From a virus, in IMG/VR virus record IMGVR_UViG_3300002835_000205, positions 1 to 59,471 of that record: DNA of 59,471 bases; one strand, given 5' to 3'. The notes below the pieces were generated by a model. It had not been told where the DNA came from. It searched no databases and saw only the letters and a program-made list of their open reading frames with translations. The stretch's first letter is position 1. Each line of letters starts with the position of its first letter. Shown here in pieces: positions 29,524 through 59,471 of the stretch. A program made the position numbers and the translations under genes.

Positions 29524-30072
29524 ATGGAATTATTAAAATTAAAAAAAAGTAAACCTGAGAAGAAAACAATACTGCTTCTTTCTGATGACTTAAGACTTCA
29601 TTCAGGAATTGGTACTATGAGTAGAGAAATTGTTGTCGGAACTGCTGAACATTATAATTGGTTTCAATTAGGGGCAGCAATCGAACACCCTGAAATAGGG
29701 AAGATAATTGATGTATCTGACGATGTTAACAATGAGTTAGGTATAGACCATGCAGATGTTAAAGTAATGCCTTGGAATGGATACGGAGACCCGCACATCT
29801 TAAGATACTTGATAAAAACTATAAAGCCTGATGCTATAATCCATTTTACAGACCCAAGATTTTGGCAATGGTTGTATCAGATGGAACATGAAGTTAGGTC
29901 TCATTGTCCTATTATATACTACGCTATTTGGGATAATACTCCGTTTCCAAATTATAATTGGATGTCGTATGCTTCTTGCGATATGGTATTAGGAATTAGT
30001 AAACAATCACACAATATACATAAAAACGTATTAGTTAATAACAATGTAAATATTATAGAATTATATGAGTAA
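29524..30072 (+). CDS. GT-B glycosyltransferase, N-terminal half of a split gene
   Basis: 182 residues: a Rossmann-type acceptor domain with KTILLLSDDLRLHSGIGTMSRE (a GT4 opening with a glycine loop), then HFTDPRFWQWLYQMEHEVR and YYAIWDNTPFPNYNWM. It stops in VNIIELYE just where an interdomain linker is expected, and the donor-binding half is encoded in the next frame from 30065. In related phage proteins both halves are one chain, as I recall. This is either a natural split with coupled translation or a frameshift mutation. Confidence 0.75.
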   Translation: MELLKLKKSKPEKKTILLLSDDLRLHSGIGTMSREIVVGTAEHYNWFQLGAAIEHPEIGKIIDVSDDVNNELGIDHADVKVMPWNGYGDPHILRYLIKTIKPDAIIHFTDPRFWQWLYQMEHEVRSHCPIIYYAIWDNTPFPNYNWMSYASCDMVLGISKQSHNIHKNVLVNNNVNIIELYE

Positions 30073-30994
30073 TAGAGTAGTTTATACGGCATTTGTACCT
30101 CATGGTATCAATTCAAAGTATTATCATCCCATTGAAGATGGACACAAAGATTTTACAGAGTTCAAAAATTTTGAGGATGAATTTAGAGTAAACAACAATG
30201 TAGATTTTTTGATATTTTGGAATAATAGAAATATTAGAAGAAAACAATCAGGAGACTTAATATTAGCATACCGAAAATTCTGTGATAGTCTACCCAAAGA
30301 TAAATCTTCACGAGTATGTTTATTGATGCATACTGAACCTGTAGATGAGAATGGTACGGATTTGATTGCAGTCAAGAATACCTTGTGTAATGATTACAAA
30401 GTTATATTCTCAGATAAGAAATTAGGAGTTAAAGAACTAAATTTCATGTATAACTTAGCTGATGTTACTGTAAATATTGCTAGTAATGAAGGATTTGGAC
30501 TTAGCGGTGCTGAATCTATTATGGCAGGTACTCCTATTATAAACAATGTTACAGGAGGTTTACAAGACCAATGTAGATTCTCAGACGAGAATGGTAATTG
30601 GATAGATTTTGATATGGATGTATCATCTAATCATGCAGGTACATACAAGAATCATGGTGAATGGGTAAAACCTGTATTCCCGTCTAATAGGTCTTTGCAA
30701 GGCTCTGTAGTAACTCCATATATTTTTGATGATAGATGTAAATTCGAAGATGTTGCAGATGCTATAGCCTATTGGTATAACATGTCTAGGGATGATAGGA
30801 AAAATTTTGGGAAGAAGGGTAGAGAATGGGCTCTAACTAAAGAGAGTGGGATGTCTTCTATTGAAATGTCAAATAGATTTGTAAAGCATATAGATAGACT
30901 ATTATCTGATTGGAAACCTAGAGAATCTTTTACAGTAGAAAAAGTAGTAAGTCATATTGATAATTCATCTAAAAACATAGGAATAACTTGGTAA
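30065..30994 (+). CDS. GT-B glycosyltransferase, C-terminal half of a split gene
   Basis: 309 residues, beginning NRVVYTAFVPHGINSKYYHPI, the usual mid-protein motif 'VPHGI....F.Pi' of GT4 enzymes, so it lacks an N-terminal domain of its own. The donor site is visible as NIASNEGFGLSGAESIMAGTPIINN (E-x7-E type). The ATG overlaps the end of the preceding half by 8 bases in the +1 frame, allowing translational coupling and reassembly as a heterodimer. Substrate unknown. Confidence 0.75.
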   Translation: MSNRVVYTAFVPHGINSKYYHPIEDGHKDFTEFKNFEDEFRVNNNVDFLIFWNNRNIRRKQSGDLILAYRKFCDSLPKDKSSRVCLLMHTEPVDENGTDLIAVKNTLCNDYKVIFSDKKLGVKELNFMYNLADVTVNIASNEGFGLSGAESIMAGTPIINNVTGGLQDQCRFSDENGNWIDFDMDVSSNHAGTYKNHGEWVKPVFPSNRSLQGSVVTPYIFDDRCKFEDVADAIAYWYNMSRDDRKNFGKKGREWALTKESGMSSIEMSNRFVKHIDRLLSDWKPRESFTVEKVVSHIDNSSKNIGITW

Positions 30995-30995
30995 T

Positions 30996-32264
30996 ATGGT
31001 AAAAACAGTTTTAATGTATGCTCCGATTATGACAAGGTCAGGATACGGAGACCACTCAAGAGATATTGCATACTCTATTATAAAAAATCCTAAATACAAA
31101 TTAGAGATACATCCTTTAAATTGGGGCTCTACAGCATGGGATGGTTTAGATGTCAATACTGAAAAGGGTAAGATTATTGAGAAACATATAGTTAACAATG
31201 ATACACCTAACCCTGATATATTTATACAGATAACAATTCCGAATGAATTTATCAGATTAGGAAAATATAATATAGGAATTACTGCGGGTATTGAAACAGA
31301 TTTATGTAAACCTGAATGGATTGAGGGATGCAATAATATGGATATGGTTATAGGTACGAGTAATCATACTATAGATGTATTCAAAAATTCAATATTTGAT
31401 AAGCATGAAAAAGATACAGACATATTAGTAGATACTGTAAAGTTAAAAGATTCTCTAAAACTAGAAGTATTATTTGAAGGAGTGGATACTTCAGTATATA
31501 AAACAGTATCTGTAACTTCGGATAAGATGCGAAGTATGTTAAATCCTATTAAAGAGTCTAATTGTTATTTATTTGTAGGTCATTGGTTGGAAGGTGATTT
31601 GGGACAAGACAGGAAAGATGTCGGGATGCTCATTAAAATATTCTGTGAGACCTTTAAGAATAAACCATCTACTACAAGACCTGCATTAATTCTTAAAACA
31701 AGTGGTGCTAATTATAGTGTACATGATTTACAAGAGATGAAGTCAAGGATTAATTATATTACTAAGGAGATTAAAAACTGTCCATCGGTTTATATAATTC
31801 ATGGTAATTTGACAGAATCTGAAATGAATGAGTTATATAACTATTCAAAGATTAAAGCAATGATTTCGTTTACTAAGGGAGAGGGATTTGGAAGACCTTT
31901 ATTAGAATTTACTACGTCAGGTAAACCTGTGGTAGCATCTAATTGGTCAGGTCAAGTTGATTTTTTGAATACTGAGATGTGTGTCCTCTTGCCCGGTGAT
32001 TTGACAGATGTACATAAATCTGTACAAAATGCATGGTTTATGAAAGAAGCAAAGTGGTTTACCGTAAATTATGTATATGCCATGAAAGTTTTACAGTCTT
32101 TGGAAAATAATTACAAAGAATATAAAAAAATGGCTGAAAATCAGAAAAAGTATACTAGTAAAAATTTTACATTTGAAAAAATGTCTGAGAAATTATACGG
32201 CATACTAGATAGTATTAAGGTAGCCGAAGAGATTGTTTTGAATCTTCCAAAATTAAAAATATAA
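30996..32264 (+). CDS. GT4-family glycosyltransferase
   Basis: 422 residues, complete. The N-terminal YAPIMTRSGYGDHSRDIAY is a GT-B acceptor-domain opening. NIGITAGIETDLCKPEWI and EGVDTSVYK follow. The C-terminal donor site SFTKGEGFGRPLLEFTTSGKPVVASNWSG has the E-x7-E pattern of GT4. It starts one base after the previous gene. Likely transfers sugar from a nucleotide-sugar; acceptor unknown. Confidence 0.85.
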   Translation: MVKTVLMYAPIMTRSGYGDHSRDIAYSIIKNPKYKLEIHPLNWGSTAWDGLDVNTEKGKIIEKHIVNNDTPNPDIFIQITIPNEFIRLGKYNIGITAGIETDLCKPEWIEGCNNMDMVIGTSNHTIDVFKNSIFDKHEKDTDILVDTVKLKDSLKLEVLFEGVDTSVYKTVSVTSDKMRSMLNPIKESNCYLFVGHWLEGDLGQDRKDVGMLIKIFCETFKNKPSTTRPALILKTSGANYSVHDLQEMKSRINYITKEIKNCPSVYIIHGNLTESEMNELYNYSKIKAMISFTKGEGFGRPLLEFTTSGKPVVASNWSGQVDFLNTEMCVLLPGDLTDVHKSVQNAWFMKEAKWFTVNYVYAMKVLQSLENNYKEYKKMAENQKKYTSKNFTFEKMSEKLYGILDSIKVAEEIVLNLPKLKI

Positions 32265-32267
32265 ATT

Positions 32268-32750
32268 ATGAAAAGTAATTATGATGAAATATCTCCAATA
32301 ACACATAATTTGAGTGTATTGGTAGAACAGGACGATGCTACGGGACTTACGTCAAAAATATGTATGGATTCAGGTTATACAACAAATTCATTCCTTATTG
32401 ATGGTTCTGAAACATTAAACAAGTTAGAAAGCAGTATTGCTAAAACAGCATTTAATTTTAGAGTAGTTGATGGAAATCGTAATGTTTGGATTCCTTGTAT
32501 GCAGGCCACTGATACGTCATCTATATATCCAATTCCTGATGACGTTGATGGTACAACATTTATGTGGCAGGTAACTCCTATAAAAAAATTAAGTGAAGAT
32601 GAGTCTAAGAAGTATCCTGACCCAAACAACATCGGAAAGTATTTAGAGAATTATATTGATTTTGAAAATTCTGTAAATTTCCCAAAGGATAAATTCACTG
32701 AAGCTTTCAAACATTTTGTTAATATATCTTATGAAAGTCTAAATAACTAG
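32268..32750 (+). CDS. Conserved hypothetical protein inside the glycosyltransferase cluster
   Basis: A 160-residue soluble protein with ICMDSGYTTNSFLIDGS and a NVWIPCMQATDT segment; the acidic C-terminus ends with a KHFVNISYESL helix. Similar short proteins occur beside glycosyltransferase clusters of marine T4-like phages, function unknown. No transmembrane segment or catalytic motif seen. Confidence 0.55.
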   Translation: MKSNYDEISPITHNLSVLVEQDDATGLTSKICMDSGYTTNSFLIDGSETLNKLESSIAKTAFNFRVVDGNRNVWIPCMQATDTSSIYPIPDDVDGTTFMWQVTPIKKLSEDESKKYPDPNNIGKYLENYIDFENSVNFPKDKFTEAFKHFVNISYESLNN

Positions 32751-32753
32751 AAT

Positions 32754-33497
32754 ATGATAAGTTATTTAATTACAGTATGCAATGAACATGAAGAATTAGA
32801 TAGATTACTCAAGTCTATATTCCCAAAAGATGAAGATGAAGTAGTTATTCAATATGATACTAACCAAGTAACGTCTGAAGTTTTAGAGGTTATCGAAAGG
32901 TATGTTGAATTAAATTCTGATACTATAGTTCATGGAGAATCTTTTGATGGAGATTTCGCTAGGTATAAAAATGTAGCAAATTCACTATGTGAAAAGGATT
33001 GGATATTTCAGTTAGATGCGGATGAATACCCTTCTAAAGATTTAGCTGAAAATATTACGGATATTATCCAATCAAATCCTGAGTCATTGGATTTAATATA
33101 CATTCCAAGAGTAAATACAGTTGATGGAATTACTATAGAACATATTAAGAAATGGAATTGGAATATTAGCAGTGATGACTTAATACAGAACCATAGAGAA
33201 ATAGAGAAATTCGATGATAACTTTTTTATGCTTAAGCATTTTGATTTAGTAATATCTGAAAAGGAGATACAGGATAGATTAAGTATAATGTATAAAGAGC
33301 CTATCATAAATTTTCCTGATTATCAAGCAAGATTGTATAGGAATAAAGATACTATTAAATGGAAAGGTAAAGTTCATGAAACTGTTGTAGGAGCTTCTGT
33401 AGTGTCTAGGCTTCCTTTAGATAAAGTTTATTGCTTATACCATCCTAAAAGTATTGCTAGACAAGAAAAACAAAACGAATTATATAAAAGTTTATGA
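32754..33497 (+). CDS. GT2-family (GT-A) glycosyltransferase
   Basis: 247 residues, opening ISYLITVCNEHEELDRLLKSI (a GT2 N-terminal strand-helix) and carrying the metal motif WIFQLDADEYP at about residues 83-93. The C-terminal part includes QARLYRNKDTIKWKGKVHET, a segment common in bacterial GT2 enzymes of the WaaE/KdtX type. Overlaps the next start by 4 bases. Confidence 0.85.
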   Translation: MISYLITVCNEHEELDRLLKSIFPKDEDEVVIQYDTNQVTSEVLEVIERYVELNSDTIVHGESFDGDFARYKNVANSLCEKDWIFQLDADEYPSKDLAENITDIIQSNPESLDLIYIPRVNTVDGITIEHIKKWNWNISSDDLIQNHREIEKFDDNFFMLKHFDLVISEKEIQDRLSIMYKEPIINFPDYQARLYRNKDTIKWKGKVHETVVGASVVSRLPLDKVYCLYHPKSIARQEKQNELYKSL

Positions 33498-37057: not shown

Positions 37058-37709
37058 TCTTAAATTTACAATAAGTTCACATAAGAATTTTTATGATAAG
37101 ACTTTAAATGTACTAGTACCAAGTCTACTAGATTCAGGTATTCCAAATAATGATATATATTTTTTTGTAGGAGGGTATGATGTATATGAAAGTATACCTA
37201 ATGAATATAATATAAACCTATATAAAGCATCACATAATTCTATAGATTTTACAGGTTTAATTTCAGTAATAGATTTGACTATTAAAGCAGACTATTGGTT
37301 TTTATGCCATGATACTTGTAGAGTAGGTAGTAAATTCTATGATAGTATAAAAAATAATAACTTCAATACAGATACTATTAGATTAACTTCTGAAAATAGA
37401 AGTATGAATATAGGAGCATATAAACAAAGTTACATATATAGTATTAAAGAGAAAATACTTTCTTATAGAGGCAGCTCAAGTGCTGAATATAACATACAGA
37501 AATTAAAAAAAAGATTGATAGATGAGGAGGATTCATTACTCAAATCAGATAGCATAGGAAATTTTAATAAGAGTCAAAGAAAGGTAATAGATTCTAACAA
37601 CATATACGATAGCAATGTAAGAAGAATCACAGAATATTTTCCCGATATAGATTTTTACAAGATGAAATCAAATTGGAAACCCAAAGAAGAGTACGAACTA
37701 AATATATAA
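37047..37709 (+). CDS. Putative GT-A-like protein of the glycosyltransferase cluster
   Basis: 220 residues with LKFTISSHKNFYDKTLNVLVPSLLDSGI, then a DYWFLCHDTCRVGSKF segment where GT-A enzymes carry their acidic metal motif (here H-D-T). The family is not clear to me; the glycosyltransferase call rests on the fold-like pattern and neighbours. Confidence 0.5.
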   Translation: MNVNLKFTISSHKNFYDKTLNVLVPSLLDSGIPNNDIYFFVGGYDVYESIPNEYNINLYKASHNSIDFTGLISVIDLTIKADYWFLCHDTCRVGSKFYDSIKNNNFNTDTIRLTSENRSMNIGAYKQSYIYSIKEKILSYRGSSSAEYNIQKLKKRLIDEEDSLLKSDSIGNFNKSQRKVIDSNNIYDSNVRRITEYFPDIDFYKMKSNWKPKEEYELNI

Positions 37710-37711
37710 TA

Positions 37712-38341
37712 ATGAACGAAATTAACAAAAGTATTTACAACAATTTAGAATTACTTCCTGAAGATTTACAGGGTTGGAATGGAAATAGTAAGGTATTTAA
37801 ACAACTTATAGACGCTGTTAATCCAAAAGTAATTATAGAAGTTGGAACTTGGAAAGGACTGTCTGCAATTACAATGGCAGAGCATATAAAACATACCAAT
37901 AAATGCACAAAGATATATTGTGTTGATACTTGGTTAGGTGCTATAGAATTTTGGAGTTCTCACAAAAGCACTCCTGAAAGAGATTTGTTACTAAAGAATG
38001 GATATCCTAATATATATTATCAATTTTTAAGTAATGTAGTTCATAGAAAAGTAGAGGATATCATAATACCATTTCCAAATACATCCTACATAGGATATTT
38101 ATATTTTAAATCACAAAATATAAAAGCAGATATGATATACATAGATGCATCTCATGATGAATTTGATGTGTACAATGATATTAAACATTATATGGAAATA
38201 TTAAATACTAATGGAGTAATCTTCGGGGATGATTATAAAAGTTGGGAAGGCGTAAAAAAAGCTGTAGATAGGTATTCTTATGAAAATGATTTAGATGTTC
38301 AATTAGCAGAAAATAATTTTTGGGTTATAAATAAAAAGTAG
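37712..38341 (+). CDS. SAM-dependent methyltransferase (class I, Methyltransf_24-like)
   Basis: A protein of about 209 residues from the ATG at 37712. VIIEVGTWKGLSAITMA is the SAM-binding glycine loop, IYCVDTWLG the acidic motif II, and MIYIDASHDEFDVYNDIKHYMEIL..GVIFGDDY the late motifs with the 'D-A-x-H' of sugar and small-molecule O-methyltransferases. In a glycosyltransferase cluster it probably methylates a transferred sugar; this is inference. Confidence 0.8.
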   Translation: MNEINKSIYNNLELLPEDLQGWNGNSKVFKQLIDAVNPKVIIEVGTWKGLSAITMAEHIKHTNKCTKIYCVDTWLGAIEFWSSHKSTPERDLLLKNGYPNIYYQFLSNVVHRKVEDIIIPFPNTSYIGYLYFKSQNIKADMIYIDASHDEFDVYNDIKHYMEILNTNGVIFGDDYKSWEGVKKAVDRYSYENDLDVQLAENNFWVINKK

Positions 38342-39429: not shown

Positions 39430-40416
39430 ATGATACAATTTATGAAAATAGCTTGGTTTTCGGAATGGAGTCAAAATGTCGATAAGTTATCTAGGGATTT
39501 TAATAATATGCGTACTGAGTATGCTTGGTATGTAGCTCAAGGTGCTTCTCACTATAATATATTTGAATTACTAAAATTAGAATCCAATTCTATAGATGTA
39601 GGTATTATTATCATACCTAAAAACATAGACAAGTATTATAATATTTCTGTCGGAGATGATACTTCAAATTGGGACATAGTAAAAGACCTGAAAAGAGTTT
39701 GTAAGAAGTATGCATTTATGCAGGAGGGTGCATCTTGGATATTTCAAGATTATAAACCTTCCCAAACTTTTTGGTTTTATAATATAATGGTTAATGCTGA
39801 TTTTTTCTTGTGTCATAATGAACGAGATAAATCATACTATAAAGGATTACTTAATAAAAATGGATTTATAAATCCTACTCTAATGATAGAAGATTCTATT
39901 AAAGATTTACCTAAAGTTGATAGGTCTAATGTTATTATAGGGGGTAATTTAGTAAGGTATTATGGAGGATTTAATTCTTTGATTGTTGGGTTGGAAATAG
40001 AAGATGAGGTCTATGCACCATCTATGGGTAGAATGCATCAGGAGGAGCTTATGGTAAGTGTCATAAACAATCTACCTTATAAGACTTGGAGAGATTGGAT
40101 TTATAAGCTTAATGAATTTAGGTATGCTGTACATTTAAATCCAAATTCAATAGCAGGTACATTCAGTTTGAATTGTGCATATCTAGGCATACCTTGTATA
40201 GGCAATATCAACTCAGATACTCAGAGAATATGCTATCCTAAAACTTCATTTGAACCTGATGATTTAGAATCTTGCAAAAAAGTTGCGAAGATGCTAAAAA
40301 CAGATACAAAATTCTATGATGAAGTAGCTGAAGAATCAACATATAATTACATAAAATATTTTTCAGAGGAAAGATATAAACTTAATTGGAGAGATATACT
40401 AAAATCAATATCATGA
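39430..40416 (+). CDS. GT-B-like glycosyltransferase
   Basis: Up to 328 residues; the ATG at 39442 (MKIAWFSEWSQN) is an equally good start. A Rossmann opening is followed by NADFFLCHNERDKSYY and a C-terminal donor-site-like stretch, FRYAVHLNPNSIAGTFSLNCAYLGIPCIGNINSDTQ, where GT4 enzymes have their E-x7-E motif (here without the first Glu). The enzyme may be divergent. It overlaps the next gene by ATGA. Confidence 0.65.
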   Translation: MIQFMKIAWFSEWSQNVDKLSRDFNNMRTEYAWYVAQGASHYNIFELLKLESNSIDVGIIIIPKNIDKYYNISVGDDTSNWDIVKDLKRVCKKYAFMQEGASWIFQDYKPSQTFWFYNIMVNADFFLCHNERDKSYYKGLLNKNGFINPTLMIEDSIKDLPKVDRSNVIIGGNLVRYYGGFNSLIVGLEIEDEVYAPSMGRMHQEELMVSVINNLPYKTWRDWIYKLNEFRYAVHLNPNSIAGTFSLNCAYLGIPCIGNINSDTQRICYPKTSFEPDDLESCKKVAKMLKTDTKFYDEVAEESTYNYIKYFSEERYKLNWRDILKSIS

Positions 40417-41597
40417 AAATATCACTAATACAACCAAGTAGAAATAATTTAAAGTATTTGAAATGGTCATATGCTTCTATTAGAAAAAATCAAGGGAATC
40501 ACACCGTTCAGATTTGTGTGGCAGATGATTTTTCTAATGATGGTACATGGGAATGGTGCGTACAGAAGATGGAGGAAGATAGTAATTTCAGTGCCATTAG
40601 AAATGAAGGCCCTGATAGATTAGGTCATACTATCTTATATGACAGACTTGTAACTAAGGTAGCAAAGCATGACTATTGCATGATATACCACTCAGATATG
40701 TATTTAGCTCCAAAGGCTCTTGATGCCATTGAAAAGAATATTAAACAAGGTGTAATAGTATCATTAACGAGAGTAGAACCTTCAGGACTTCACCCTGAAG
40801 GGCCAGAAAAGATATTGGAAGATTTCGGCAAAGAACCTGATGAGTTTAAAGAAGCTAAGTTCTTAGATTGGATTGATAACTATTTTAGAAATAACACCAA
40901 CGTACCCGATACCGATGGTATCTTTGCTCCATGGGCATTCTATAAAAAAGACTTTACTAAGATTGGAGGTCACGATATATTATATGCACCACAATCAAAA
41001 GAAGATTCCGATATATTTAATAGATTTATGTTAAATGGAGTAAAATTTATTCAAACTTGGGAAGGATTCGTATATCATCTTACATGTAGAGGTTCTAGGT
41101 ACAACACCACAATTACCGATGTTGGAGTTGATTCAAATGAGTGGTTATTACAGAATTTTAAGAGTGGTAGAAACTTTGTTAGAAAATGGGGTCATTATGT
41201 TATGCATACTCCATTAATGAAACCTATTATACCTCCTAAGTATAATATTGTAGTTAAGTTATTGAACTGTAGAAGATACGAGGCACTAGCTAATATAGAA
41301 CCTTGGTGTGACGTGGTATATACTGATTTTATGGATTATGAAAAATATATTGAGGAAGAGCAGAATAATACTTTATATGATATGAGAGAGAGAGTCATGA
41401 GTTTAGATAAATTTGAAAAAGAGAATATAGTAGTAACTATAGACTTTGATAAATTTACGGATGCAGAAAGATATGCTTTGAATGAACTTTCAACTATACT
41501 TAAAAACAGTAATGTTTTAGGACAGTTTAACTTAGGTTCTATGAAAGTTGAAATATATGATTTATCAACTTATGAGCATACCTTAATCAAGGTATAA
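40413..41597 (+). CDS. GT2-family glycosyltransferase with C-terminal extension
   Basis: A protein of about 394 residues from the ATG at 40413. KISLIQPSRNNLKYLKWSYASI and VADDFSNDGTWEW are the GT2 nucleotide-binding strands (V-x-D-D-x-S-x-D-G-T), MIYHSDMYLAP gives the metal motif and QSKEDSDIFNRFMLNG the acceptor ED-like loop. Residues after about 300 form an extra alpha/beta domain. It ends the cluster. Confidence 0.85.
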   Translation: MKISLIQPSRNNLKYLKWSYASIRKNQGNHTVQICVADDFSNDGTWEWCVQKMEEDSNFSAIRNEGPDRLGHTILYDRLVTKVAKHDYCMIYHSDMYLAPKALDAIEKNIKQGVIVSLTRVEPSGLHPEGPEKILEDFGKEPDEFKEAKFLDWIDNYFRNNTNVPDTDGIFAPWAFYKKDFTKIGGHDILYAPQSKEDSDIFNRFMLNGVKFIQTWEGFVYHLTCRGSRYNTTITDVGVDSNEWLLQNFKSGRNFVRKWGHYVMHTPLMKPIIPPKYNIVVKLLNCRRYEALANIEPWCDVVYTDFMDYEKYIEEEQNNTLYDMRERVMSLDKFEKENIVVTIDFDKFTDAERYALNELSTILKNSNVLGQFNLGSMKVEIYDLSTYEHTLIKV

Positions 41598-47599: not shown

Positions 47600-47627
47600 A
47601 GTGAATCTCTTGTGGGATTCACTTTTT
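47600..47627 (+). terminator. Rho-independent terminator after the microprotein gene
   Basis: AGTGAATC (47600-47607) pairs perfectly with GATTCACT (47616-47623) across an 8-base loop, followed by TTTT. It separates the 41.6-47.6 kb genes from the subtilase gene. Confidence 0.88.
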
Positions 47628-47640
47628 GTTTATAGATAGC

Positions 47641-47650
47641 ATATTTATAG
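47641..47650 (+). promoter_or_regulatory. Candidate late promoter box ATATTTATAG
   Basis: ATATTTATAG (preceded by GC) lies 13 bases past the terminator and 20 before the subtilase ATG at 47671, the same terminator-promoter layout as at 1383-1430. Confidence 0.5.
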
Positions 47651-47670
47651 GTAGACAAAAACAATACACA

Positions 47671-48621
47671 ATGACAAAAAATGTAATCGTACCACCACAT
47701 ATAGTTAACGATTTAAATCCTATGATGACTTTTAGTCAAAATATAGGATGGGGATTGGTAAAGTTAAATATAGAAAGTTTACATAAAAAAGGATTCACAG
47801 GAAAAGGTGTGAAGATTGGTATCATAGATTCGGGATGCGATTTAAACCATCCTGATTTGAAAATTTCAAGCTCTAAAAACTTTACAGAATCTAACAGTTG
47901 TGAAGACACCTCAGGGCACGGAACACACGTGGCAGGTATTATAGCAGCACAAGGAAACAGCTATGGCGTACTAGGTATAGCACCTGATGCAGAGATACAT
48001 GTATATAAAGCATTAGATGGTACAAGTGGAAGTATAAAAGGTGTCATAGATGCTTTAAAAACAGCTATAGATGATAAAATGGATATAATCAATATGTCAT
48101 TAGGCACACCATCTCAAGTTAGCGGTTTAGAAAAACTTTGCAAGAAGGCTCAACAACAAGGTATTATAGTAGTTGTTGCAAGTGGAAACAGTGGTTTGCA
48201 AGAGAACTATTTTCCTGCTGCATATGATTCTTGTATTTCTGTAGGAGCTACGGATGAAAATATGAAGGTTGCTTATTTCACGACATATGGTCAGGAATTA
48301 GACATAGTCGCACCCGGTGCAGAAATCCTAAGTACCTACCTCAACGGGTCATACGCAGTACTCTCAGGAACTTCAATGGCTGCACCATTCGTAAGCGGTT
48401 GCATAGCTTTAATGAAACAGTCAGGAATTGCAGTAACTTATAGCAGCATTATAGAATCTGTAATAGATATCGAAAGACCAAACTTTGATATTAAATCAGG
48501 ATATGGAATAATCAATCCAACAAAGAGTATTTTAGGAGAGGAAATTGCTGTAGAAGTTCCAAAACCTAAAGCTAAAAAGTGTTTATTCTGTTTTTTGAAA
48601 AATTTTATGAAAAAAAATTAA
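47671..48621 (+). CDS. Subtilisin-like serine protease (peptidase S8)
   Basis: 316 residues from the ATG at 47671. The full catalytic set is present: Asp53 in VKIGIIDSGCDLNHPDL, His83 in SGHGTHVAGI, Asn173 in VVVASGNSG for the oxyanion hole and Ser235 in GTSMAAPFVSG. No signal peptide or long propeptide is visible, and the C-terminus is basic and Cys-containing (KKCLFCFLKNFMKKN). It could process phage structural proteins or act on the host at lysis; neither can be shown here. It has its own promoter and terminator context. Confidence 0.92.
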   Translation: MTKNVIVPPHIVNDLNPMMTFSQNIGWGLVKLNIESLHKKGFTGKGVKIGIIDSGCDLNHPDLKISSSKNFTESNSCEDTSGHGTHVAGIIAAQGNSYGVLGIAPDAEIHVYKALDGTSGSIKGVIDALKTAIDDKMDIINMSLGTPSQVSGLEKLCKKAQQQGIIVVVASGNSGLQENYFPAAYDSCISVGATDENMKVAYFTTYGQELDIVAPGAEILSTYLNGSYAVLSGTSMAAPFVSGCIALMKQSGIAVTYSSIIESVIDIERPNFDIKSGYGIINPTKSILGEEIAVEVPKPKAKKCLFCFLKNFMKKN

Positions 48622-52145: not shown

Positions 52146-52189
52146 TAATATAGTTATATTTAAAAAATTTGCGAGAAGAAACTAAACCA

Positions 52190-53323
52190 ATGACACAACA
52201 ATATTCACACATAGATATTCAGTATCAGAGTCTACTAAATAATATAGTAGAGAACGGAGTAGAAAAATCAGATAGAACAGGTGCAGGTACACTATCTATA
52301 TTTGGACATCAGATTAGACATAATATGCAAGATGGATTTCCATTATTGACAACTAAGAAACTATCTTGGAAAAATATAGTTACTGAATTATTATGGTTTT
52401 TAAAAGGAGACACCAATATCAGATACTTACTAAATAACAATTGTAATATTTGGAATGGAGATGCTTATAAGAATTATATACATAAACATAACTTCCATAT
52501 TAATGAAAGTATAAACATGTTAACTATGGATGAGTTTATACATGTGATTAAAACTAATGATAATTTCTCGGACGAGTGGGGAGACTTGGGGAGGATTTAC
52601 GGAGCACAGTGGAGAAGATGGAAAAAAGTTGACGAGGTTTGGGATGAAAGATTAATACCTCCATTTAAGATTGAAAATATAGAACTTGTAGACCAAATCC
52701 AAAACCTCATCAACGACCTTAAAACAAACCCTGATTCAAGACGATTAATGGTAAACGCTTGGAATGTAGGTGAGTTGGACAAGATGGTTCTACCACCATG
52801 TCACTATGGATTTCAAGTTTATACAAGAGAATTGAGTTTGAAGGAAAGAATATTAATTGCAGAAACTAATACAGAAATAATACCTGGATTTGATTCTCAT
52901 TTTGATATTGATGAAGATGTTCATAATGTTTTAGATACTTGGAACACACCAACCCGAGCAATATCATTAATGTGGAATCAACGTTCTGTTGATACTTTCT
53001 TAGGATTACCATACAATATAGCATCCTATGCTTTATTACTAGAAATTTTAGCTAAAGAAGTAAATATGATTCCTGATGAACTGATAGGTAACTTAGGTGA
53101 TACTCATCTATACCTTAATCATATAAGACAAGCTGAGGAGCAAATAGCTAGAGTACCTTATAACTTGCCAAAACTACATATTAATACAGAGTTTTGGCAA
53201 ACTATGAGTGGTGAATGTGGTGTAGGTGATTTCAATACTAATTTACAAGGATTTGAAATTGATGATTTTATACTAGATAATTATCAGTGTCATCCAACAA
53301 TACGAGCAACTTTAAATAATTAA
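52190..53323 (+). CDS. thyA: Thymidylate synthase
   Basis: About 377 residues from the ATG at 52190. DRTGAGTLSIFGHQIRHNM holds the phosphate-binding Arg, GDLGRIYGAQWR and DSRRLMVNAWN are conserved, VLPPCHYGFQV has the catalytic Cys204, and RSVDTFLGLPYNIASY keeps the Asn that selects dUMP, arguing against dCMP hydroxymethylase. Larger than E. coli ThyA (264), with insertions near residues 90-125 and 215-255. Makes dTMP for this AT-rich genome. Confidence 0.95.
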   Translation: MTQQYSHIDIQYQSLLNNIVENGVEKSDRTGAGTLSIFGHQIRHNMQDGFPLLTTKKLSWKNIVTELLWFLKGDTNIRYLLNNNCNIWNGDAYKNYIHKHNFHINESINMLTMDEFIHVIKTNDNFSDEWGDLGRIYGAQWRRWKKVDEVWDERLIPPFKIENIELVDQIQNLINDLKTNPDSRRLMVNAWNVGELDKMVLPPCHYGFQVYTRELSLKERILIAETNTEIIPGFDSHFDIDEDVHNVLDTWNTPTRAISLMWNQRSVDTFLGLPYNIASYALLLEILAKEVNMIPDELIGNLGDTHLYLNHIRQAEEQIARVPYNLPKLHINTEFWQTMSGECGVGDFNTNLQGFEIDDFILDNYQCHPTIRATLNN

Positions 53324-54918: not shown

Positions 54919-55230
54919 ATGATAGTAAACTCAAGAGTTGTACATTGTAAGAAGGAAAATTATAATGTATATATTGGTAGACCTTGTAAATGGGGTAATC
55001 CATATACACATAAGCAAGATGGCAAAACACTTGCTAAGTATGTGGTAAATACGAGAGAAGAGGCTGTAGAAGCTTACAGAGAGTGGATTACTAATGGGGA
55101 AGGAAAACATTTACTAGATGATTTGCATGAGTTAAAAGGTGGAAAGATTCTCGGTTGTTGGTGTAAACCTCAAGCATGTCATGGAGATGTATTAGTTGAA
55201 CTTATAAATAAAAAATTTTATGATAGATAA
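54919..55230 (+). CDS. DUF4326 protein
   Basis: 103 residues: RVVHCKKENYNVYIGRPCKWGNPYTH at the start and KILGCWCKPQACHGDVLVEL at the end, the defining elements of DUF4326. The conserved Cys and His probably bind metal. Widespread in phages, biochemical role unknown. Overlaps the next gene by 11 bases. Confidence 0.88.
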   Translation: MIVNSRVVHCKKENYNVYIGRPCKWGNPYTHKQDGKTLAKYVVNTREEAVEAYREWITNGEGKHLLDDLHELKGGKILGCWCKPQACHGDVLVELINKKFYDR

Positions 55231-55459
55231 TATTTTAGAAAATTATCCCGAAGAGGAGTTTTTAAAAGCTGATGGATTTGATGAGGCTATACTTGGAGTT
55301 GATGATACCTCAATGAGGCTTATATATTCTGTATCCAAGTGTATTGAAATCCTTATGAAAGATATGTCAGATGAGGATGCTTTTGAATACTTTTATTTTA
55401 ATGTCAGTGGAGCTTATGTTGGGGATAAAACACCCATATGGTGTAATGATATTATATAA
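55220..55459 (+). CDS. Conserved hypothetical phage protein
   Basis: 79 residues with GFDEAILGVDD...RLIYSVSKCIEIL and DAFEYFYFNVSGAYVGDKTPIW. The pattern 'G.deA..G......lvYd..k.ie.L...gms.eeA.EyfefNv.gayvG..TP' is a familiar small phage family without known function. Confidence 0.7.
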   Translation: MIDNILENYPEEEFLKADGFDEAILGVDDTSMRLIYSVSKCIEILMKDMSDEDAFEYFYFNVSGAYVGDKTPIWCNDII

Positions 55460-57553: not shown

Positions 57554-58705
57554 ATGGAAAACTTAAACAGCGTATGTTTTATTTCACAAATAAATGAAGT
57601 AAAACCTATAGAAAACTCTGACAATATAGAACTAGCTATTGTTAATGGTTGGAATTGTGTTGTCAAGAAGAACCTTTATAAGGTAGGTGACTTAGTAGTA
57701 TGCATGACAACTGATGCAGTTCTACCTAAAGAAGTAGCAGATATGCTAGAAGTAACTAGCTACCTCAGAAGTGGGAACAGAGTAAGAACTGTTAAACTAA
57801 GAAATACCTACAGTGAGTGTTTGGTAACTCCTCTATATGCATTTTCAAATACCTTATCTGCATATGATTCCATGCATGTAGGAAAAGACTTAATGTCAAT
57901 CTTAGGAATATATAAGTATGACCCACCCGCTAAAATGCTCAGGTTGTCTAACGGTAAAACAAGAAAATATCATGAGAACCCTAACTTTCCAATTTATTAT
58001 AAATTTCCAAATATAAAGAATAAACCTAATTTGTTCAACTCAGTTGATTATGTAGAAATTACAAGAAAAATACATGGAACAAATGCAAGATACGGTATAG
58101 TAAAAAAGAATAAACTATCTGTATGGAGTAAGATAAAGAAATTCTTAGGTTTTTCATTAGGTTGGGATGCATATGAATTTGTGGTAGGTTCTCACAATGT
58201 AGAAAAAGGTTCTGAAAGTCAAGGATTTTATGATAGAAATGTTTGGTTCGATATTGCGGATAAATACCAAATTAAAGATAGACTTTGGAATGTTGTTAAA
58301 AATAAGGTATCTTCGTGCCAACCTGAAGACATTGGCAGTGGACTAGTAATTTATGGAGAAATCTATGGGAAGGGTATTCAAAAGAACTATGAATATGGGT
58401 TAGATGATATTATGTTTTTTATATTTGATATTGAATTAGATAAGAAGTATTTAAATATGACTTCTGCTCAATACATGGCTGAAGATTGTATAGGTATTTC
58501 GTATGCTGAAGTTCTATACACAGGATTTTACTCAGAAGAAATTAAGAATACTTATGTATTCAATAATTTTATAAACAATACCAAAGTACCACATGAAGGT
58601 GTCGTTATAAAATCTATTGATGGTGATAGGCATAAAGTAGCTAAAGTAATAAATCCTGATTACTTGATATACGGAGAGAAACATAGTATTGGAGATTCAC
58701 ACTAA
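57554..58705 (+). CDS. RNA ligase (Rnl5/DraRnl-like, nick-sealing)
   Basis: 383 residues. An N-terminal OB-like domain (KPIENSDNIELAIVNGWNCVVKKNLYKVGDLVVCMTTDAVLP) is followed by the nucleotidyltransferase core: motif I EITRKIHGTNARYG with Lys172, motif III-like region VIYGEIYGKG, MFFIFDIEL, motif IV HEGVVIKS and motif V KVAKVINPDYL. The N-terminal-OB plan matches the Deinococcus-type ligase rather than T4 Rnl1. It would seal nicked RNA, for example after host anticodon-nuclease damage. Confidence 0.88.
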   Translation: MENLNSVCFISQINEVKPIENSDNIELAIVNGWNCVVKKNLYKVGDLVVCMTTDAVLPKEVADMLEVTSYLRSGNRVRTVKLRNTYSECLVTPLYAFSNTLSAYDSMHVGKDLMSILGIYKYDPPAKMLRLSNGKTRKYHENPNFPIYYKFPNIKNKPNLFNSVDYVEITRKIHGTNARYGIVKKNKLSVWSKIKKFLGFSLGWDAYEFVVGSHNVEKGSESQGFYDRNVWFDIADKYQIKDRLWNVVKNKVSSCQPEDIGSGLVIYGEIYGKGIQKNYEYGLDDIMFFIFDIELDKKYLNMTSAQYMAEDCIGISYAEVLYTGFYSEEIKNTYVFNNFINNTKVPHEGVVIKSIDGDRHKVAKVINPDYLIYGEKHSIGDSH

Positions 58706-58711
58706 AAAGTT

Positions 58712-59158
58712 ATGGAAAAAGAGCATGATTGGAGACAAGAGTGGAAGGATATGCCTGAATTCCATGTACCTACTAGAAATACAGAATTAAGAAACCAAAT
58801 TGATATTTCTGACATAAAAGAATTATCAAATAACTCTACATCAGTATTTCCTAAGTATCCTATATACATAATATCTAAAGGTAGATGGAAAAGTCCATTA
58901 ACTGCAAGGGCATTGGATAAGATGGGAATTGATTATAGAATTGTTATAGAATCTTTAGAATATGATAATTACTGTAAAACAATAGCAAAAGAAAAAATAT
59001 TAGTTTTACCATTTGATAATCTAGGACAAGGTTCAATACCTGCAAGAAATTGGGTATGGGAACATTCTATAGGAGAAGGACATAGAAGACATTGGATATT
59101 AGATGATAATATAAATGGATTCGGATATCAAAAAGGGGGAGAAGAGTCAATGCAGTAA
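58712..59158 (+). CDS. TET-associated-type glycosyltransferase, N-terminal part (frameshifted)
   Basis: 148 residues, opening WRQEWKDMPEF, then FPKYPIYIISKGRWKSPLTARALDKMGIDYRIVIES, LPFDNLGQGSIPARNWVWEHSIGEGHRRHWILDDNINGF. This is the GT-A core of the TET-associated glycosyltransferase (TAGT) family, with the WxLDDNI metal motif. TAGTs are known from phages that glycosylate hydroxymethylated pyrimidines. The frame meets a stop 15 residues past the core, after an A5G5 run (59130-59139), and the rest continues in the -1 frame. Start in the AAAGTT-ATG context. Confidence 0.75.
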   Translation: MEKEHDWRQEWKDMPEFHVPTRNTELRNQIDISDIKELSNNSTSVFPKYPIYIISKGRWKSPLTARALDKMGIDYRIVIESLEYDNYCKTIAKEKILVLPFDNLGQGSIPARNWVWEHSIGEGHRRHWILDDNINGFGYQKGGEESMQ

Positions 59159-59471
59159 ATGGAGACCTATTTCGTCAATGTGAAGACTTTGTAGATAAGT
59201 ATTCTAATGTATCGATGGCAGGAATACGATATAGATTTCACCATAACTATGTAAAGAGTCCATATTATTTAAATACTAGAGTATACTCATGCATACTATT
59301 AGATAACAAAGTACAGCAAAGATGGCGTGGAAAATATAACGAAGATACTGATTTGAGTTTGAGAATACTAAAAGAAGGTAGTTGTACAATGTTATTTACT
59401 TGGTGTTACTGTAATAAAACTGCTTCTATGAAAATGAAGGGAGGAAACACTGACGAAGTATACGGAGATAC
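59137..59471 (+). CDS. TET-associated-type glycosyltransferase, continuation in the -1 frame (runs off window)
   Basis: From the G run onward the -1 frame is open to the window end and reads ...RRVNAVNGDLFRQCEDFVDKYSNVSMAGIRYRF, then KYNEDTDLSLRILKEGSCTMLF. This is the expected second half of the preceding gene ('v..g..F...EdfvdrY.NVa.aG..Y.fF', then the ED-containing acceptor helix). It has no start of its own near the beginning. Either a real frameshift mutation, a base-calling error in the homopolymers, or a -1 programmed shift. 3' end outside the window. Confidence 0.7.

Follow-up and report, generated by a model that had tools for sequence, protein, structure and literature searches.

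The viral record analysed here (the window, 59,471 bases in full) carries at its cut end a gene for a TAGT-family glycosyltransferase, an ordinary accessory phage gene whose reading frame changes by -1 within a run of five A and five G residues. The break is very probably a sporadic insertion or deletion, confined to a single record, in an otherwise ordinary TAGT gene, with one base-length change in this run disrupting the frame. Such an indel would stem from an error in sequencing or assembly close to the end of the contig, to which we give somewhat more weight, or from a very recent real mutation, to which we give somewhat less; assembly would be weakest near the contig end, and here that end lies 332 bases past the break.

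A TAGT gene split between two frames

Both pieces of the gene (Table 1) exceed the curated PF20691 cut-off of 27.5 bits, and a profile search of the whole record recovers the same two pieces. The original prediction of a TAGT-type glycosyltransferase is thus borne out, and its placement of a -1 break at the A5G5 run, with the first half stopping at 59158, stands once the frames are fixed by comparison with relatives. The first half contains a DDN motif (D131-D132-N133, positions 59102-59110), an N-E-D-T-D motif lies in the second half (59338-59352) and the -1 frame product has 112 residues when read from 59134. The single uninterrupted frame of the PF20691 family is therefore missing from the window copy, both through the offset and through the contig end, which removes the C-terminal part.

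Table 1. Features of the window discussed in the text, in window coordinates
Feature	Position	Strand	Details
ThyA, plain thymidylate synthase type (QRSVDTFLGLPYNIASY)	52169..53323	+	PF00303, E 3.2e-92; aligned with E. coli ThyA structures
RNA ligase (phrog_968 / PF09414 with PHA02142 OB fold), upstream neighbour of TAGT	57554..58705	+	
TAGT first half	58712..59158	+	frame 0, 148 aa; PF20691 73.5 bits, profile 1-98; phrog_842
A5G5 run, -1 frame change	59130..59139	+	read directly; frames pinned against L003 and L004
TAGT second half	59140..59471	+	-1 frame, 3' end cut by contig end; PF20691 57.9 bits, profile 112-205; phrog_842

The sequence Q-K-G-G-R-R is continuous in two relatives, L003 and L004. 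The window matches it through Q140-K141-G142 in frame 0 and resumes with R-R from 59140 in the -1 frame, which places the frame change inside the run; a few residues past the junction, a loop differs in length by one codon and stays in frame. The run itself, AAAAAGGGGG, has its sole copy in the window exactly at this junction, and at least one copy arose in 12 of 100 shuffles. Nine other sites in the window have G runs of 5-6 with no evident broken gene and, as a point against the preferred reading, give no sign of a general rate of homopolymer errors.

Among the TAGT-bearing contigs, the most similar TAGT is that of L003 (IMGVR_UViG_3300025237_000002), with 65% and 76% identity over the two halves; its frame is intact, unlike that of the window. 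Its contig has just one other detected gene in common with the window, and because of this the TAGT behaves as exchanged cargo. That one other gene is small (phrog_13182; 55220-55459 in the window, 33074-33319 in the L003 contig, G001) and sits a few kb from the TAGT in both contigs; the two are possibly co-travelling.

The two proteins also have in common an N-terminal W..EW..MPEF motif, which spans 58724-58780 in the window. This motif precedes many TAGT domains (window, L003, L004, L015, L021, L031 and L086), and Pfam assigned it to no family among the proteins searched.

The break is not a property of the gene family

In all 80 of the closest relatives, both TAGT halves share one frame across this junction, and the three closest encode Q-K-G-G-R-R with other codons, so that the A5G5 run is absent from them. 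In about 20 relatives this region holds runs of 5-7 and the frame stays intact. Breaks of other kinds affect two members of this first set of 80: L026 differs by one base in a run, and L053 has an in-frame stop. A second set of 80 relatives contains no break of the window's kind; L192 alone is broken there, again by an in-frame stop. L026 offers a precedent for the window: L028, which is intact, is identical to it at 1,038 of 1,040 positions, and the L026 frame is lost through one base in a T run. TAGT breaks are thus sporadic, at differing sites and limited to single records; their frequency (3 of 160 loci) is not significantly different from that of a ThyA control (0 of 80).

The window gene also shows no decay: of 49 near-invariant columns, defined by conservation of 97% or more among 77 relatives, it keeps 48 (23 of 23 in the first half and 25 of 26 in the second, with DDN and NEDTD included), and its halves have similar pN values against L003, 0.161 for the first and 0.149 for the second. 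The frame change is therefore either very recent or not real. A sister record was sought with an exact-flank pattern that left the run length free, which returned 0 viral contigs, and queries with the TAGT N-terminus and with the RNA ligase brought up no closer copy of the locus.

A frame difference of another sort is seen in L087 (Vibrio phage henriette 12B8, HQ316582, 20996-22264), where a TAGT is present and unannotated, the locus tag VPDG_00024 being missing. Within this gene the MPEF and TAGT parts are in different frames, and the change falls at another site than the break in the window.

Predicted fold and putative activity

The TAGT has been assigned to the GT-A fold (PMC13216743), and the predicted model of L003, the closest relative on a large contig, agrees with this assignment (mean pLDDT 85.2, pTM 0.86). 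Its best PDB matches are the GT-A glycosyltransferases majastridin, COLGALT1 and SpsA, at modest TM-scores of 0.4-0.5, and it is far closer to the BFVD models of TAGTs from other phages than to any of these. Modelling was done on this relative, and the GT-A fold is thus a prediction for the window protein. In the L003 model, the break maps between two neighbouring strands, past the DDN motif and well ahead of the NEDTD helix.

The intact enzyme most likely moves a sugar from a nucleotide-sugar to phage DNA, where the acceptor would be a base that is hydroxymethylated or has been glycosylated before. With the sequence as written, translation would end at 59158 and yield a product that has the DDN (donor-site) half and lacks the NEDTD half. 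This product should be inactive because the NEDTD half is absent.

Several TAGT-bearing proteins are fusions, with partners that fit an action on DNA. These are a DNA polymerase A in L041 (4416-7766), a ParB-N-like domain, below the Pfam cut-off, accompanied by the MPEF motif in L042 (4356-5843) and L079 (4299-5822), and a UDG-like domain, also below the Pfam cut-off, in L064 (4551-6290).

Competing explanations of the break

Phase variation, sequencing error and recoding had all been put forward for the break, and an error or a chance mutation fits best. A programmed -1 ribosomal frameshift on the A5G5 run, which would yield the full enzyme, draws on the offset being -1 and located at a run, and on a P-site AAA that could re-pair after a -1 slip. 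However, the frame-0 codons CAA AAA GGG GGA GAA contain no in-phase X_XXY_YYZ heptamer, the 100 nt downstream fold less well than the average shuffle (z +0.68, with 152 of 200 shuffles at least as good), and the 80 closest relatives all keep one frame across the junction, the three closest without the run; recoding is exceedingly unlikely. A split gene with re-initiation was also considered and rejected: the second frame offers no ATG, GTG or TTG before 59215, which is already within the domain, and starting there would cost about 25 residues.

Reversible changes in run length that toggle the glycosyltransferase within a phage population would agree with a two-part homopolymer run exactly at the break, with the L026 TAGT also being broken at a short run and with the non-significant excess of broken TAGT loci over ThyA. 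Yet the run is only 5+5 and not shared by the closest relatives, the breaks of other records fall elsewhere in the gene, and the runs of 5-7 in about 20 relatives leave the frame intact; such phase variation is unsupported and very improbable. Loss of function could instead have been selected by a host defence against sugar-modified DNA, such as a Brig1-like DNA glycosylase, that favoured an inactivating one-base indel. Indeed, T4 phages that escape Brig1 have alpha-gt altered by single-base indels or substitutions (PMC13216743), but for the window phage this reading presupposes both such a host defence and a real indel, and selected loss is very unlikely. A more general proposal, in which phages repeatedly and reversibly shut off their TAGT genes through short-run indels as an adaptation to defences that target glycosylated DNA, with the window record caught in the off state, is likewise very improbable. 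If the break is genuine and was selected, it would link the sugar modification of phage DNA with escape from defences in nature. The break is mainly a warning that a single frameshift at a contig end is not to be read as a genetic switch.

DNA modification context

The best-described member of the TAGT family (PF20691 / phrog_842) is the T6 enzyme, a beta-glucosyl-HMC-alpha-glucosyltransferase that is reported to add a second glucose onto glucosyl-hmC (PMC13216743; same role in PMC13390438). The window protein shares with the family its profile matches and the DDN and NEDTD motifs, and differs in its broken frame, its lost 3' end and its N-terminal MPEF motif. Searches for the T4-type alpha- and beta-glucosyltransferases (AGT and BGT), run without a positive control, found neither in the window. 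According to PMC13216743, 288 of 753 phage genomes carry a TAGT and no alpha- or beta-glucosyltransferase. The window adds one more solitary TAGT, with neither TET nor a T4-type glucosyltransferase detected in its contig, to this family, in which the substrate is putative for many phages.

The association with a TET/JBP dioxygenase raised in the original prediction is weak: in a search without a positive control, neither the window nor 39 TAGT-bearing contigs, most of which are fragments, gave a match to Tet_JBP. A hydroxylase elsewhere in the genome is conceivable, the contig being a fragment. A linked dioxygenase is in any case no requirement for TAGT membership, since TAGT also occurs in phages with no TET link, for example T6. 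The view that the single ThyA in the window resembles a plain dTMP synthase is upheld by alignment with the E. coli ThyA structures, in which its FLGLPYN keeps the asparagine of dTMP synthases. No ThyA homologue turned up in the 39 TAGT contigs or in L084, most of which are fragments, and thus no common route to hmC is visible. At 384 residues the window ThyA is about 100 longer than usual, with insertions that include one around residues 225-265.

Elsewhere in the window, several more glycosyltransferase-like genes lie at 30065-33497 and 40386-41597, together with a methyltransferase-like ORF at 37673-38341 and a subtilase-family protease (PF00082, phrog_3677) at 47626-48621. The contig as a whole is myovirus-like, with a tail sheath, an RNR and a PolA-type polymerase.
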